DNA from: Terriglobia bacterium | GTDB taxonomy: Bacteria; Acidobacteriota; Terriglobia; Acidiferrales; UBA7541 | DNA length: 64,000 nucleotides | NCBI GenBank assembly: GCA_023512135.1 | Contig: JAIMAG010000010.1 | Location: 1 to 64,000, forward strand | Direction: 5' to 3' | Part shown: positions 12,334-16,981 of the stretch, in pieces | Layout: each line of letters starts with the position of its first letter | How positions within the stretch are numbered: the first letter of the stretch is position 1 | The notes under the pieces: model-generated | The model's input: the letters and a program-made list of their open reading frames with translations, nothing else | Told to the model about the DNA's origin: nothing | The model's database searches: none | Made by a program: the position numbers and the translations under genes

Positions 12334-12696
12334 TCAGTTTTTAGCTCGCGGATCGTCCGCAGCCTCTTCCTGTCCGTGACCTAGTTCGGTGGTCGTTAAC
12401 GCTTTTTCGCAGCAGAAATCCTTAAACTCCCTGAACTTCTCCCTGGCGTTATCGATCTTCTGGCGGATGGGTGGATAAGATTCGTAAGCCATGGGACCTT
12501 CTTGAACCTGAATTGTGTCTTCCCTGAATTCTCTCACCTCAAAAACGTGTGGAATCCCACCAAAGTGCAGCAGATAGCCTGGACGCTTCTTTTTGCCAGC
12601 AATTTGTGGCTCGTATTCCCAGTCGTTGATTCCCTGAGAACGGAGATATTCCTCGAAAAGAACTTCGGACTCATTTTTTTGTTTCTTGACGGGCAT
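12334..12696 (-). pseudogene. Truncated nuclease-like gene (PD-(D/E)xK-like N-terminal domain)
   Basis: 120 residues. The N-terminal 95 resemble a family of stand-alone restriction-endonuclease-like proteins: ESEVLFEEYLRSQG, EYEPQ, KRPGYLLHFGG and HVFEVREF, followed by PPIRQKIDNAREKFREFKD. The expected active-site D of K-R-P-D is G40 here, and E-x-K is E53-V-R55, so the site looks degenerate. After residue 96 the family-like sequence stops abruptly and a short unrelated tail (EKALTTTELG...) leads to the stop. I interpret it as 3'-truncated and probably inactive. Base composition is lower in G+C than the neighbours. Confidence 0.55.
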
Positions 12697-13237
12697 AATT
12701 CCTGTCCCGAGCGTATTTGAAACGGGTGGCTCGTGACAGAGAGTACTTTAGGCCGACTGAGCTGCGGAATGCAAAGCCGATGCTTTCTGCCCATGCCGCT
12801 GACAGCTCAGGGAAGAGAAATCATCGATCCACATCAGAGCCGGTCGGGGCTGCTCTGCGCCGGCTGGACTGCACGGGAAGCTGAAATTCAAAGGTTGCTT
12901 CGTAGCCAGGCTTTTGGTTTCCTGTAGCTGCTCGGCTCGCTGAGTTCCTCTCCCCGACGATTTCGTTCGGGACGGTCCGCCGCACGCAGTGGTTGTCGCC
13001 CTGCCAATGTTCACGTAGCGTGCCACGTGGCGCAGCTTCGAAAGCTGCGACTGGATGAAGTTGGTCGTGGCCGAACTGCGGCGCAATGGTGGCCCGAGGA
13101 TCAGCCGGTGCAAGATGAGGCTTTGCTCCTTTGCTTTCTTCGGGCTGTGCGCCGTGGATCCGGAAACGCCCGGATTCAAAACTGACTTCGGCCCGCAGAA
13201 GCAAAAATGCGGGGTGCTGTCAGTGGAGTCAAGGTTC
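12697..13237 (+). other. Non-coding stretch left of the island
   Basis: Short open frames on both strands lack family resemblance, consistent starts or ribosome-binding sites. This would be the original sequence upstream of tRNA-Sec if the 69-bp repeat marks the left end of an insertion. Confidence 0.45.
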
Positions 13238-13306
13238 GTGCTATCTTGCACGGAGCAGGCGGCGGAGGCGCAACGGGTCCGGTGACCCGCCCGGCCTTCA
13301 AAGCCG
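13238..13306 (+). repeat. Left 69-bp direct repeat (attachment-site-like, partial tRNA-Sec)
   Basis: Identical over 69 bp to 16861-16929. It contains the -10 hexamer TATCTT and the 5' half of tRNA-Sec through the anticodon loop (tRNA part 13264-13306), then diverges, so this copy cannot fold into a tRNA. Confidence 0.9.
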
Positions 13307-13525
13307 TTTTCAGGGTTCGCGCACTATTCCGCACCGAAGCGCCGAGTGCCGCATAACCCCTGTGTTCGCAGGTGGTTCTACCGTTTCCGTCTGCGTAGCG
13401 CCCTGCACGCGCCCGCACGAAATTGCAAAACCAACTGACACCAAAACTGACACCGCTTTACAGCGCAAAGTGGGGGCCTTCGATCATGCGGCGGCCTCCT
13501 CCAGGGGCGGTGCAGCTGAAGGGCA

Positions 13526-13555
13526 TGTACAAGAACGAGTACCCAAGTCTATAAT
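13526..13555 (+). promoter_or_regulatory. Predicted promoter for a leaderless island gene
   Basis: TGTACA (13526-13531), 18-nt spacer, consensus TATAAT (13550-13555). The first codon of the next gene begins 8 nt after the -10, leaving no room for a Shine-Dalgarno sequence. Confidence 0.5.
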
Positions 13556-13563
13556 CCCGGTCC

Positions 13564-13965
13564 ATGCATCCTGACGACAGATTCCACGTGGTAGGGTTCA
13601 CCAGGGACCAAGTTCGGGATGGTGCCTTGTTCCGTGTGATGGCGCTCTCTGACCACGTGCTGCGTAGGATGGCAGAACTGCACCAGCAATTGGGTGCCCT
13701 CCAAGACGCGGTTGCGCAGGGTCAGGTCGTGCGCGAGTTGGTGGAGATCTATTTCGTGATCCCGTTCGAGCGGGATGCCGCGCAGGAGTTGCTTGGCCGA
13801 TTGAATCAGGACTACTTCGCCGTGTACCTGCTGAACGATTCCGCGCTGCGGGTGTGCCAGCAGTACGGCATCCCTCTGCCGCCTGTCGCTGCCGAGATCA
13901 CCAGGGCTGGAATCCCCGCGCCCATCGGCACGGTCATGCAGTTTCCCAGTTTCGAGTTGGCCTGA
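13564..13965 (+). CDS. Hypothetical island protein, 133 aa
   Basis: No family recognised. The protein is soluble and mostly helical, with an N-terminal segment FHVVGFTRDQVRDGALFRVMALSDH and a hydrophobic C-terminal stretch rich in proline (GIPLPPVAAEITRAGIPAPIG). Codon use and the absence of long repeats look like real coding sequence. There is no ribosome-binding site, but a consensus -10 element ends 8 nt before the ATG, which suggests a leaderless transcript. It is the first gene inside the island and reads towards the membrane-protein gene. Function unknown. Confidence 0.55.
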   Translation: MHPDDRFHVVGFTRDQVRDGALFRVMALSDHVLRRMAELHQQLGALQDAVAQGQVVRELVEIYFVIPFERDAAQELLGRLNQDYFAVYLLNDSALRVCQQYGIPLPPVAAEITRAGIPAPIGTVMQFPSFELA

Positions 13966-14004
13966 TTGGCCTTCAAACCAGCTTGGGCAAAGAACCCATC
14001 AGGT

Positions 14005-14033
14005 TGCACAAATACCACTATTCATGCTAGAAT
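14005..14033 (+). promoter_or_regulatory. Predicted promoter for a second leaderless island gene
   Basis: TGCACA (14005-14010), 17-nt spacer and TAGAAT (14028-14033) with a TGC extension. The ATG at 14040 falls 6 nt after the -10, at the expected transcription start. Confidence 0.5.
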
Positions 14034-14039
14034 CTGCGC

Positions 14040-14519
14040 ATGTTCCCAGTGTTTTTCCTGCTCGCCGTCATTGTCCCGCTGGTGGGACTCTATTCTTTCT
14101 GGCGTGATGCGCAGACCAAGGGATGGGATTGGATCTCTGCCGATAGTCTGAAGATGTATGTGGACGCCTCGAAAACTTTCCTCACTGCGTCGGGGATCGC
14201 TGTAGCCATCGTCGTTGGGTCGCTTGGAGGAAAGCTTTCACCACCTTCATGGATTGTCCAGCGAGCGGTCGCCGGACTCGTAACCTGTGTGGTCTTTGCG
14301 CCCATCACAGTCTTGCTGCTCTATCGCCTATATGAGAGGGCGAGTGCCCGCCACCAGGAAGCCGAACCAGAAGGCGTTCACGGCCAGGGAAAACTGACCC
14401 GCATTGAACTGGCCCTACTTTTGGTGATGGCGTATGTCACGCTGGAGGGGTTCATCCTCGGGTTTCTGTACCTCGCTCGCGCCCCGTTTCACATGACCCT
14501 TAGTGACGTTTGGCGGTGA
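14040..14519 (+). CDS. Hypothetical island membrane protein, 159 aa
   Basis: No family recognised. Four hydrophobic segments are visible: residues about 1-18 (MFPVFFLLAVIVPLVGLY), 48-62 (TASGIAVAIVVGSLG), 75-97 (VAGLVTCVVFAPITVLLLY) and 123-147 (ALLLVMAYVTLEGFILGFLYLA). The loop between segments 3 and 4 is charged. The transcript is probably leaderless (see the promoter just upstream). The 3' end overlaps the convergent gene by 20 bp. As a small membrane protein beside unknown cargo genes it could be a membrane-acting effector or a helper of a neighbour, but nothing in the sequence proves this. Confidence 0.6.
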   Translation: MFPVFFLLAVIVPLVGLYSFWRDAQTKGWDWISADSLKMYVDASKTFLTASGIAVAIVVGSLGGKLSPPSWIVQRAVAGLVTCVVFAPITVLLLYRLYERASARHQEAEPEGVHGQGKLTRIELALLLVMAYVTLEGFILGFLYLARAPFHMTLSDVWR

Positions 14520-14865
14520 GCAGGGCTTGAAAGTGCTCCATCACCGCGTCGCGCAGCCGCAGGGCGTCTTTCACCATCTTGGCAGGCGCGCCAGGATGCA
14601 GGCGGGCAAACTCCAGCGGACGGGCGCGGACTTCCTGCTCCATGCCGATTGCTTCCTGGGCTACCCGCGCCGTCATCTTGCCCGCGCGCACCAAGCCTGC
14701 GAAGAAAGCGGCCTCGGCCTGCGCCTGGCGCTTCAGCAGCGCACCGTCGAGCGCTCCCAACAGCGGATCGCCGTCTATTTTCCTGCGGGAGTTCGCCACG
14801 CGAGGGCGACGCCGCCAATCAAGCGGTGGTGGGGGTGTGGTGATCAGCAGAGTCTGTGTTGCCAC
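14500..14865 (-). CDS. Hypothetical island protein, about 121 aa
   Basis: No family recognised. The C-terminal 90 residues look like real coding sequence and predict helices: DGDPLLGALDGALLKRQAQA, EAAFFAGLVRAGKMTARVAQ and KMVKDALRLRDAVMEHF. The start is uncertain; I use a GTG at 14865, because the frame upstream of it reads as basic low-complexity sequence. There is no clear ribosome-binding site. The gene is convergent with the membrane-protein gene (20-bp overlap) and divergent from the nuclease-like gene. A small phage-type helical protein is plausible but unproven. Confidence 0.5.
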   Translation of the reverse strand: MATQTLLITTPPPPLDWRRRPRVANSRRKIDGDPLLGALDGALLKRQAQAEAAFFAGLVRAGKMTARVAQEAIGMEQEVRARPLEFARLHPGAPAKMVKDALRLRDAVMEHFQALLTAKRH

Positions 14866-15005
14866 GGCGGCGAGAGTGCCAGACTCATTCGAAGTGCGCA
14901 AGTGGAAAGTACCTATTTGGGTATTCCTTCTCTGATTTTTCCTGTGCCTGCGGTCAGCGACGGTGCTAGACTTCGCCCCGACAACCTCCCAGGAGCTTAA
15001 CCGCA

Positions 15006-15626
15006 ATGGCCAAACGAAGCATTGAGTTGGTCTCGCCAGCATCAGTCTATAACCGCGTCGTTTTCGGCCTCTTGATTTCCGTGGTTGCCTACCTGTGGCC
15101 GGTTCAAACACAGGACGCGGCCAATGTTCGCATCATCGCTATCGCCGTTGGGATTGTGATGTTCCTGTCCGGTTGGACAGCGGTGAAGAACCCCATGCAG
15201 GCTGTCCGCTACGCGGCCAATCCCCGCCGCACAGTCCTGCGCCTGATCGAGGAATGGAAGCCTGAGCCGGCGCGGCTCGAATCCGAATACGAAAAATCTC
15301 TGCACCGCTTTCTCAAGGAGCGCCTTCCGTTCGTGAAGGTCACGCGGCAGTATGGGTCAGCCAGGGTGAAGTGCGACCTGGCTACCGGACAGGATGTGAT
15401 GATCGAACTGAAGGCAGGCTTACGCTCCACGCAGAAACTACAGCGGCTCATCGGCCAGATCGAACTGTTCACAAGAGAATGGGACAAGCCCGTGATCGTC
15501 GTCTTGCTTGGGGAGACGGAGGAGGATTTGCTCCACGACCTGCACCGTAGCCTGCGCCAGTACACCCGCGTGGACGTGGTGACGAAGCCGGTTGAGGCCC
15601 GTGTTGAAGAAGAAGGGCAAGGCTGA
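15006..15626 (+). CDS. Two-helix membrane protein with PD-(D/E)xK nuclease-like domain
   Basis: 206 residues. Two transmembrane helices lie at about residues 17-33 and 41-57. The cytoplasmic part (about 88-195) contains YEKSLHRFLKERLPF, then VKCDL (D124) and MIELKAG (E134-x-K136), followed by LQRLIGQIELF and the hydrophobic strand PVIVVLLGE. The D-x9-E-x-K spacing, the following helix with a conserved-looking Gln and the alternating strands match the restriction-endonuclease-like core. ATG 15006 has AGGAG 10 nt upstream. The fold is my inference from motifs; no named family is claimed. A role in defence or DNA processing is possible. Confidence 0.6.
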   Translation: MAKRSIELVSPASVYNRVVFGLLISVVAYLWPVQTQDAANVRIIAIAVGIVMFLSGWTAVKNPMQAVRYAANPRRTVLRLIEEWKPEPARLESEYEKSLHRFLKERLPFVKVTRQYGSARVKCDLATGQDVMIELKAGLRSTQKLQRLIGQIELFTREWDKPVIVVLLGETEEDLLHDLHRSLRQYTRVDVVTKPVEARVEEEGQG

Positions 15627-16057
15627 AGGGCTCCGTGCTGAGCGATGAGGTACCAAACCCAGTTCAACCGGATTCTGGACAAGCTCTGTCAGCGGCGCAC
15701 CGAATAGCCACTTGCGCGGCCTCGGTAGTCTGCGTCCCGCTATCCAAACAGAAACTGCATGTTGGGTGAGTATGCGTACTGCCCAAGAAAGCCCAGGGAG
15801 TGGACCTCAAGCAGGCCCAGGGGGAAGGAGACATCGGGCATTTCGAGCCTCCACTGTCTTGGCAACCGGAGAATGCTGCCATCGGGTGAGGCAGGGCCAT
15901 TCTCAGCGGGGTAAGAACACCACTCAGTAAAAATTCATGCAGCGAAAGATTGTGTGTAGCTTTTGCATCCCGCTCACAGTGGCATGTCCCGAGGCGTGCC
16001 GTTCGGGTTCGCCTTCCCCGCCCAGCCTTGCCGCGATAAATTCCTATAGCGCGTTAA
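15627..16057 (+). other. Non-coding stretch inside the island
   Basis: No convincing gene on either strand. It separates the nuclease-like gene from the convergent terminase-like gene, where a large terminase subunit might have been expected. No hairpin followed by a T-run stands out. Confidence 0.45.
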
Positions 16058-16567
16058 TCAATTTGCCCCACTTCGAGCCTCAGCCCGCAGACCCTCGGCC
16101 AGGGCCGCCAGCGCCCCCCGTAGGGCTTGGTCCAGCTTGGCCTCGATCACATCGCGGGACTCGCCTTCCAGCTGGTGCGCTATGCGGCTGGGCAGCATAA
16201 GGATTCTCTGGCGTACCGTGCTGTTGTGCGAGCTCATGTACTCGCGCACGACGGAGATTTCCACCAAGCCGCCGCGCTTCTGGTCACGCTCCGTTTCGAG
16301 CAAATCAGCGGCGGCCTTCGCATGACGAAGGCGCTCACGCCTGATCTCGCGGCTCAATTCACGGGCTTGAGGGTCGTCGCCGCCATCGCGCCGTTCGAGC
16401 AGTGTTCGATAATGCCGCACGCACCACACCAGGGCCTCAGCAAGTGGGAACTCACCCCTGGCAGTTTTCGGCAATCCCAATTCCACCAGCTTCAGAACGT
16501 AGCGCTCACTGACGCCTAGAATCCGCGCCAACTTGCCTGTTCCAACCGTCACGACCTTTTTCTTCAT
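16058..16567 (-). CDS. Phage terminase small subunit-like (Nu1-type) protein
   Basis: 169 residues. The N-terminal region (about 8-45) reads as a winged-helix/MerR-like DNA-binding unit: TGKLARILGVSERYVLKLVELGLP, then GEFPLAEALVWCVRHYR. A charged helix follows (LSREIRRERLRHAKAAADLLE), and the C-terminal half has the STVRQRILMLPSRIAHQLEG pattern typical of Nu1-type DNA-packaging proteins. Such proteins recognise phage DNA for packaging. ATG 16567 has GAGGG about 9 nt upstream; the open frame continues further upstream only through antisense of the integrase and tRNA and I exclude that. No large terminase or capsid genes are present. Confidence 0.62.
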   Translation of the reverse strand: MKKKVVTVGTGKLARILGVSERYVLKLVELGLPKTARGEFPLAEALVWCVRHYRTLLERRDGGDDPQARELSREIRRERLRHAKAAADLLETERDQKRGGLVEISVVREYMSSHNSTVRQRILMLPSRIAHQLEGESRDVIEAKLDQALRGALAALAEGLRAEARSGAN

Positions 16568-16570
16568 CGC

Positions 16571-16855
16571 TTGCGCCCTCAATCGGAAGCGGTGCGCGAG
16601 GCAGGAATTGAGGACTTCCGCTGGCACGATCTCCGTCACACGTTCGCCACGCGCCTGCGCGAGAAGGGCGTGCCGCTCGAGGACATTGCTGATCTGCTCG
16701 GGCACAAAGGGCTGGCGATGACGCGGCGGTACGCTCACACCAACCTGGAGCGGCTGCATCAGGCTGTGGGCCGCCTGGCCAGAAAACCATTTGGCACCAA
16801 AACTGACACCGGCCAGTCTAGGCGCAGAAGCAGGCGCGCTGTTGGTGCAGCCTAA
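16571..16855 (+). pseudogene. Tyrosine recombinase (integrase) C-terminal remnant
   Basis: An in-frame stretch of about 94 residues encodes only the end of a phage-type integrase catalytic domain: AVREAGIEDFRWHDLRHTFA (HxxR box), LLGHKGLAMTRRYAHT with the second catalytic His and the nucleophilic Tyr, then a tail. The N-terminal arm/core-binding domains and the first catalytic Arg are missing; the sequence immediately upstream is the antisense start of the terminase-like gene. It ends a few bases before the repeat that carries the tRNA-Sec promoter, the usual place for an integrase beside its attachment site. Non-functional as it stands. Confidence 0.75.
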
Positions 16856-16870
16856 GTTCTGTGCTATCTT
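16842..16870 (+). promoter_or_regulatory. Predicted promoter of tRNA-Sec
   Basis: TTGGTG (16842-16847), 17-nt spacer, TATCTT (16865-16870) with a TGC extension; the tRNA begins 17 nt after the -10. The -10 lies within the 69-bp repeat, the -35 outside it. Confidence 0.6.
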
Positions 16871-16929
16871 GCACGGAGCAGGCGGCGGAGGCGCAACGGG
16901 TCCGGTGACCCGCCCGGCCTTCAAAGCCG
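16861..16929 (+). repeat. Right 69-bp direct repeat (promoter -10 and 5' half of tRNA-Sec)
   Basis: Identical to 13238-13306. It runs from the -10 region to the 3' side of the anticodon stem of the intact tRNA-Sec gene. The presumed crossover lies inside this shared block. Confidence 0.9.
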
Positions 16930-16981
16930 GTGATCCCGACTCAGTCGGGGTGGTGGGTTCGACTCCCACACGCTTCCGCCA
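16887..16981 (+). tRNA. selC: tRNA-Sec (anticodon TCA)
   Basis: 95 nt with an encoded CCA. The fold matches bacterial selenocysteine tRNA: 8-bp acceptor GGAGGCGC against ACGCTTCC (one G-T pair and a C-A mismatch at the eighth position), a long 6-bp D stem CGGGTC/GACCCG with loop CGGT, anticodon stem CCGGC/GCCGG around CTTCAAA, a long variable arm CCCGAC-TCA-GTCGGG and T arm GTGGG-TTCGACT-CCCAC. It decodes UGA as selenocysteine with SelA, SelB and SelD, none of which is in the window. Confidence 0.93.

Follow-up and report, generated by a model that had tools for sequence, protein, structure and literature searches.

The closest described counterparts of the locus analysed here are the PICIs, which the account in PMC6092414 characterizes by an integrase, a replication module, a master transcriptional regulator, att sites of their own that are never occupied by prophages, the absence of structural genes, a size of around 12-15 kb, and induction and packaging by a helper phage. 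According to the same account, some PICIs carry a homologue of the terminase small subunit (TerS) and others cos sequences; several are without TerS, making it a frequent but not an obligatory component. A related type, the cfPICIs, is described as producing its own capsids (PMC11389934; reference title in PMC10803314). Further, the Pseudomonas satellite Phi-AH14b is reported as a 16.8-kb element with an integrase, an AlpA-like regulator and a primase that is packaged in helper capsids (PMC4936722), and interference with tail assembly is reported to be carried by PICIs and minimal satellites (PMC11364771, PMC10803314). A literature search conducted mostly without subscription journals turned up no report of phage satellites from Acidobacteriota, nor of any satellite with a tape measure.

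The window, a 64,000-nucleotide stretch of a Terriglobia genome (2.83 Mb in 51 contigs), contains on contig C13 a 3.7-kb remnant (13231-16929) lying between 76-nt direct repeats of tRNA-Sec. A genome scan placed its relatives in Terriglobia / Candidatus Acidiferrales, the group to which the host is assigned. The left att repeat (13231..13306, + strand) copies the 33 nt upstream and the first 43 nt of tRNA-Sec; the right repeat (16854..16929, +) overlaps the functional tRNA-Sec gene that served as the integration target (16887..16981, +; anticodon tca, ARAGORN). The two repeats share 96% identity and are separated by 3623 nt from start to start. Reading into the tRNA-Sec is the C-terminal part of a tyrosine recombinase (16571..16855, +), which covers positions 116-170 of the 172 positions of the Pfam Phage_integrase profile (PF00589, E 1.1e-16). 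It is 69% identical over 75 residues to the integrase of a tRNA-Sec element from another genus (G010) and 51% identical to that of a second island in the same genome (on contig C39, see below). On the opposite strand, with its start 3 bases from that of the open frame of the integrase fragment, is terS (16058..16567, -; coding 16061-16567, with the stop extending to 16058), encoding a Nu1-type terminase small subunit of 169 aa. Neither the large subunit (TerL) nor portal or capsid genes were recovered from the island in searches with Pfam, PHROGs and further profiles. Thus, the initial annotation, which had drawn attention to a Nu1-like TerS unaccompanied by TerL, portal or capsid and to an integrase remnant flanked by att-like repeats, described the locus correctly.

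The remaining contents are less informative. A 133-aa ORF (13564..13965, +) and a hydrophobic 159-aa ORF (14040..14519, +) have positive coding scores and no convincing match in Pfam, PHROGs or PADLOC. Another 133-aa ORF (14500..14901, -) also has a positive coding score and is without a PADLOC match, and a longer ORF sharing its frame gives no convincing match in PHROGs or Pfam. A 206-aa ORF with a hydrophobic N-terminal part (15006..15626, +) is a possible nuclease (phrog_28707, E 1.4e-4) with no relatives in the other 88 genomes of the bacterial family. As none of these ORFs had a PADLOC match better than E 0.0075, we dropped a defence function for them. No replication gene was found in the remnant with Pfam and PHROGs, nor was a master transcriptional regulator. 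Proposed arm sites for the integrase are present at both ends, on the left at 13427..13455 (core 13435-13454, +; exact motif) and on the right at 16783..16811 (core 16791-16810, +), within the 3' end of the integrase gene and with 2 mismatches relative to the left copy. With up to 3 mismatches allowed, this repeat, CTGACACCAAAACTGACACC, has 6 matches in the genome and 0 in the control, occurring once at each end of the window remnant, of the C39 island and of an island on contig C44.

The profile search that the initial annotation had suggested for the 169-aa protein retrieved phrog_57, 'terminase small subunit', over residues 1-162 (E 6.4e-23), with no Pfam match up to E 1. A profile of six relatives searched against the PDB yielded only two matches, both weak (E 0.11 and 0.23) and both terminase small subunits. 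The AlphaFold model (pLDDT 83, pTM 0.40) placed the TerS DNA-binding domains 7lw0, 6hn7 and 1j9i (Nu1) among the top structures of a fold search, none below E 0.3. Judged by its sequence, the protein is a true lambda/Nu1-type phage TerS. The length of the ORF was rejected as evidence because shuffles of this GC-rich DNA reach it: when the 3.5-kb stretch was shuffled 200 times with dinucleotides preserved, a frame of at least 169 codons was present in 177 cases. A search with the single protein found no near relatives in the phage collection or among viral contigs, and relatives were recovered only with a six-row alignment. In a tree of 62 TerS sequences, the window protein sits on a long branch and pairs with the TerS of a TerL-less element in genome G268a (ultrafast bootstrap 96, SH-aLRT 63).

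In all 37 IMG/VR loci with a related TerS retrieved by this alignment search, a TerL homologue lies beside it, whereas the 26 loci examined from bacterial genomes comprise 16 with TerL (L039, L205, L206, L208-L213, L215-L221), 9 without it and one that is unassignable at a contig end; the two sets were not drawn alike, as the viral collection was chosen by phage hallmark genes. The TerL-less loci are that of the window, C39 of the same genome, and those of G067, G070, G072, G088, G268a, G113 and G207. The unassignable locus, in G138 (L045), was counted neither way because its contig stops about 360 bases past TerS; L222 and L223, in which the local profile finds no TerS, and about a dozen weak places were left out of the count. 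A single clade of TerL-less TerS was not supported: they are scattered in the tree, requiring 7 changes, a number as low in 144 of 500 shuffles. Lambda-type TerL was found in only 1 of 89 genomes of one bacterial family, that of G073, which represents one lysogen of a lambda-type phage within this family. Between the TerS of G072 and that of the G073 prophage, dN is 0.089 and dS 0.638, pointing to selection along the path joining them, which includes the phage side.

The phages keep a pattern of the form GGGTCCT-N(13-22)-CGCGGGTGACGGCG upstream of TerS. Allowing up to 3 substitutions in its second part, we found 42 matches in 240 overlapping loci versus 3 in reversed sequences. Of the 37 viral TerS loci, 23 have it, and so does the G073 prophage; several of the viral contigs start too near TerS to show the site. 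In lambda, GGGTCCT lies near the right end, a GC-rich stretch with GGCGA lies at the very left end and Nu1 begins at base 191; we call the site cos-like on the strength of likeness and position. Four of the nine TerL-less loci (C39, G067, G070 and G072) possess it, with that of G072 about 8 kb from TerS and the C39 island bearing an exact copy of the site conserved in the phages. It was not found in the window, G088, G268a, G113 or G207. Across 399 genomes of the class, the exact form has 9 matches in 6 genomes, against 1 in the control: the genome containing C39, G067, G070, G072, G268b, whose element has TerL, and G164. In the last, the site lies beside a common gene on four short contigs (L251-L254). 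An integrase is encoded on two of them and a PrimPol on one; neither TerS nor TerL is present on these contigs.

The C39 island (G000:C39:1456-21486; L044, L230) is a TerL-less element of 19.9 kb at a tRNA-Leu. Its 105-nt att repeat (99% identity) comprises the tRNA-Leu 5' half and upstream DNA, and the geometry is as at tRNA-Sec. It encodes a full-length integrase, a 754-aa protein whose N-terminal 180 residues match phage primase/helicase, an S49 head-maturation protease and a short or truncated TerS-like protein retaining only the DNA-binding half. Its defence genes, as detected by PADLOC, are a type III restriction-modification pair and a PD-Lambda-4-like gene; one more candidate defence protein is matched less strongly. 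Only the integrase and att-proximal DNA are common to it and the window remnant; at their far ends, an alignment of about 190 nt contains a core of 31 identical nt.

Comparable TerL-less islands with exact direct repeats are found in well-assembled genomes: that of G268a measures 18.4 kb and lies at tRNA-Arg (first 40 nt), that of G113 20.4 kb at tRNA-Asn and that of G207 17.2 kb at tRNA-Ser. The elements of G070 and G072 have 11 gene families in common and are nearly collinear despite lying at different tRNAs (Lys and Phe, respectively), which favours a single evolving lineage over a pair of prophages in decay. Several TerL-less loci thus appear to be mobile islands and go beyond orphan genes. 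Speaking against an intact lineage, in G070 the TerS match is split over two frames and the tape measure is shortened, which may reflect decay or an assembly error. The G070, G072 and G268a elements have helix-turn-helix genes in common that, judged from their sequence, look AlpA-like. A ClpP-like gene of the G070 and G072 elements was discarded as a marker, as it also occurs elsewhere without TerS. The G072 element (L058:8782-10521) is at a tRNA-Phe beside a putative ftsK gene, so named from its translation; G088 has a broken TerS remnant at tRNA-Phe (L043:2272-2951) in a neighbourhood resembling that of G072, as if the same insertion had decayed. The genome of G268a also harbours a 17.4-kb element (G268b) that resembles the G268a island but carries TerL.

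Several of these TerL-less elements contain virion genes. Tape-measure genes are present in those of G070, G072, G268a and G113, and the G268a element additionally encodes an S49 head protease and a tail protein (phrog_1101; Pfam Phage-tail_3). TerL, portal and the phrog_617 head protein were not detectable in the TerL-less regions searched, with the proviso that unrelated capsids could be missed by these profiles. The initial annotation had named two outcomes contrary to its satellite reading, namely a non-phage family for the 169-aa protein and full morphogenesis modules in related islands, and neither was encountered.

The TerL-less elements resemble PICIs in their terminal integrase, att repeats, replication gene, and own TerS or copy of the phage cos, as well as in the AlpA-like regulator of several relatives and in a size that is PICI-like to slightly larger. 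They differ in that a tape measure is encoded by several relatives and either a tail protein or a head protease by some, in their Terriglobia host, in an att site within the tRNA 5' half in some, and in the mere 3.7 kb of the window copy. Taking the PICI features individually, a replication module is lacking in the window remnant, while C39 has its primase/helicase-like protein; structural genes are absent from the remnant but present in C39, G268a, G070, G072 and G113; the 3.7 kb of the remnant and the 17-20 kb of its relatives both fall outside 12-15 kb; and either a TerS (remnant) or a cos-like site (C39, G067, G070, G072) is present. The elements are akin to the cfPICIs in being satellites with some virion genes of their own. 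However, cfPICIs as described make capsids and take tails, whereas the elements studied here are without portal and head protein and some of them have tail genes; portal or phrog_617, marking capsid genes of their own, were not found in the window or the searched TerL-less elements. Phi-AH14b differs in having, per its authors, no terminase and no head-neck-tail genes (PMC4936722).

We consider that 13231-16929 is probably a decayed cos-type, PICI-like phage satellite whose integration site was the 5' half of tRNA-Sec. Beyond the contents of the remnant itself, this reading draws on the lack of TerL in 9 of 26 bacterial loci as opposed to its presence throughout the viral set, on the att-bounded TerL-less islands, on the arm repeats that pair the remnant with C39, on the grouping of its TerS with that of G268a, and on the cos-like site of four TerL-less elements. 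Before decay, the island would probably have possessed an integrase and a replication gene, together with a cos site and a TerS of the window type. Upon infection by a lambda-type Terriglobia phage, such an island would excise and replicate, and, by combining its own TerS with the TerL and capsid of the helper, would package itself. A deletion of about 7 kb (about 7.4 kb when measured on the C39 layout) would later have brought the integrase end directly up to the terS start, taking with it the N-terminal part of the integrase along with the replication gene and cos site; with these lost, the window copy would no longer be self-mobile. The integrase of C39 faces its tRNA, with primase, protease, cos-like site and TerS all directed the other way. 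Orientations in the window agree with this, and the integrase match there begins at the equivalent of C39 residue 296, abutting TerS. A single deletion in a C39-like layout would thus yield the structure seen in the window and would remove the cos-like site, although C39 can serve only as a stand-in for the ancestor. We infer that the element lived as a satellite, relied on a helper and answered to an induction signal, and likewise that it suffered the deletion; the TerS family, att repeats, integrase remnant, missing TerL, portal and capsid genes, sister islands and the cos-like site in some of these are observations. The relic is ordinary in itself, and its interest comes through its relatives.

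The proposal of a decayed satellite by the initial annotation is therefore upheld in part. In its favour are the TerL-less tRNA islands of 17-20 kb, some with a cos-like site; support stays partial because the window has lost the replication gene, cos-like site and full integrase that would separate the readings, no matching helper was found, and several relatives carry tail genes. It had suggested a search for related islands of 8-15 kb at the same tRNA; the TerL-less islands found, in relatives and in the same genome, are of 17-20 kb and at other tRNAs. No helper prophage with a matching TerL, for which it had also suggested a search, was found in the genome: lambda-type TerL (phrog_15) is absent from the whole genome, and the sole match to portal phrog_21 is the C39 head protease. 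The genome does contain, at C49:65295-81685 (L055, L056), a head-tail cluster with a TerL (phrog_2), a portal and a head-tail adaptor, in which most other tested ORFs are without a PHROG match; it may be a gene-transfer-agent-like cluster or a defective prophage. We rejected its TerL as that of a helper, since it belongs to another TerL family and lies in a different head-tail cluster.

Besides the missing cos-like site, replication gene and helper, the long branch of the window TerS, the scatter of TerL-less TerS in the tree, the truncation of the C39 TerS, the small overlap between C39 and the window and the 206-aa ORF without relatives in the family all count against a satellite, and the integrase family of the window is also used by phages. 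The main rival reading is a decayed lambda-type prophage: a temperate phage, about 40 kb in size, would have entered tRNA-Sec and kept no more than terS, the integrase end and a few ORFs. Lambda-type Terriglobia phages (the G073 prophage and those of IMG/VR) resemble the elements in their TerS, integrase and tape-measure families and cos-like site; their TerS is accompanied by TerL throughout the viral set, one of them is established as a lysogen in the bacterial family, and a heavily deleted copy looks alike whatever its source. Yet these phages have TerL directly after TerS, usually with portal and head protein beside it, whereas the frame downstream of TerS in the window is unrelated and on the other strand. 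The lambda-type marks (TerL, portal and major head protein) are absent from the window remnant, and deletion could account for this. Moreover, the sister island C39, in the same genome and with the same integrase type, is TerL-less, and the nearest TerS belongs to a TerL-less element. On balance, we regard a prophage origin as unlikely.

Considerably more improbable, in our estimate, is that TerS is cargo of a defence or other genomic island, acting as a lone protein that hinders lambda-type packaging through competition for the cos site. TerS is the only recognizable packaging gene remaining and its frame is open, and C39 keeps the DNA-binding half of TerS by a cos-like site, near defence genes. 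The C44 island, with the same arm repeats, also has no recognizable morphogenesis genes among its called ORFs, as read from their translations. Against cargo, the relatives join TerS with replication genes and cos-like sites in the manner of mobile satellites, and the window ORFs are without a good PADLOC match. The C44 island (G000:C44:221387-253709; L238, L239) is itself a 32-kb element, flanked by 59-nt repeats that copy the 3' part of a different tRNA-Leu. Its integrase is broken up into several frames, and it has large genes of putative defence function, again read from translations.

Returning to the satellite reading, a broader version of it can be put forward tentatively, as one that is possible rather than probable: a lineage of cos-type satellites in Terriglobia would bring TerS and the tape measure with its partner, in some cases also a tail protein and a head protease, and take TerL, portal and capsid from the helper, with the window as a worn-out relative. 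The tape measure and its upstream partner would have putative roles in tail length and DNA injection, and the lineage would be a mirror image of the cfPICIs. If these genes are functional, the elements would contribute the parts for packaging, tail and entry while obtaining the capsid from elsewhere; and if the tape-measure genes act in satellite particles, this would constitute a novel kind of parasitism, with the satellite replacing tail and entry components of the helper virion. The TerL carried by G268b, an element resembling that of G268a in the same genome, and the capsid families that the profiles could miss call for caution here. With exact att ends and a cos-like site in common with a defined phage family, the islands offer a concrete handle for testing.

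The tRNA-Sec gene is also used by other elements. In G010, an element at the same tRNA-Sec 5' half (L134:5375-6904, L133:4994-5055) has a full integrase, on contigs that break off. In G001, of the same genus as the window genome, tRNA-Sec is without the window island; its left flank could not be matched to the window because its upstream genes differ. In G006 (contig C2), two tRNA-Sec-like copies (1112064-1112162 and 1115713-1115811) lie 3.6 kb apart, perhaps as a result of another insertion at tRNA-Sec. Finally, immediately left of the left att repeat in the window, a stretch of lower GC (12334-13230) contains a 120-aa ORF that belongs to no known family. A short segment there, 13177-13193, duplicates some of the 3' end of the integrase gene, and together these hint at an older insertion at the same tRNA-Sec.
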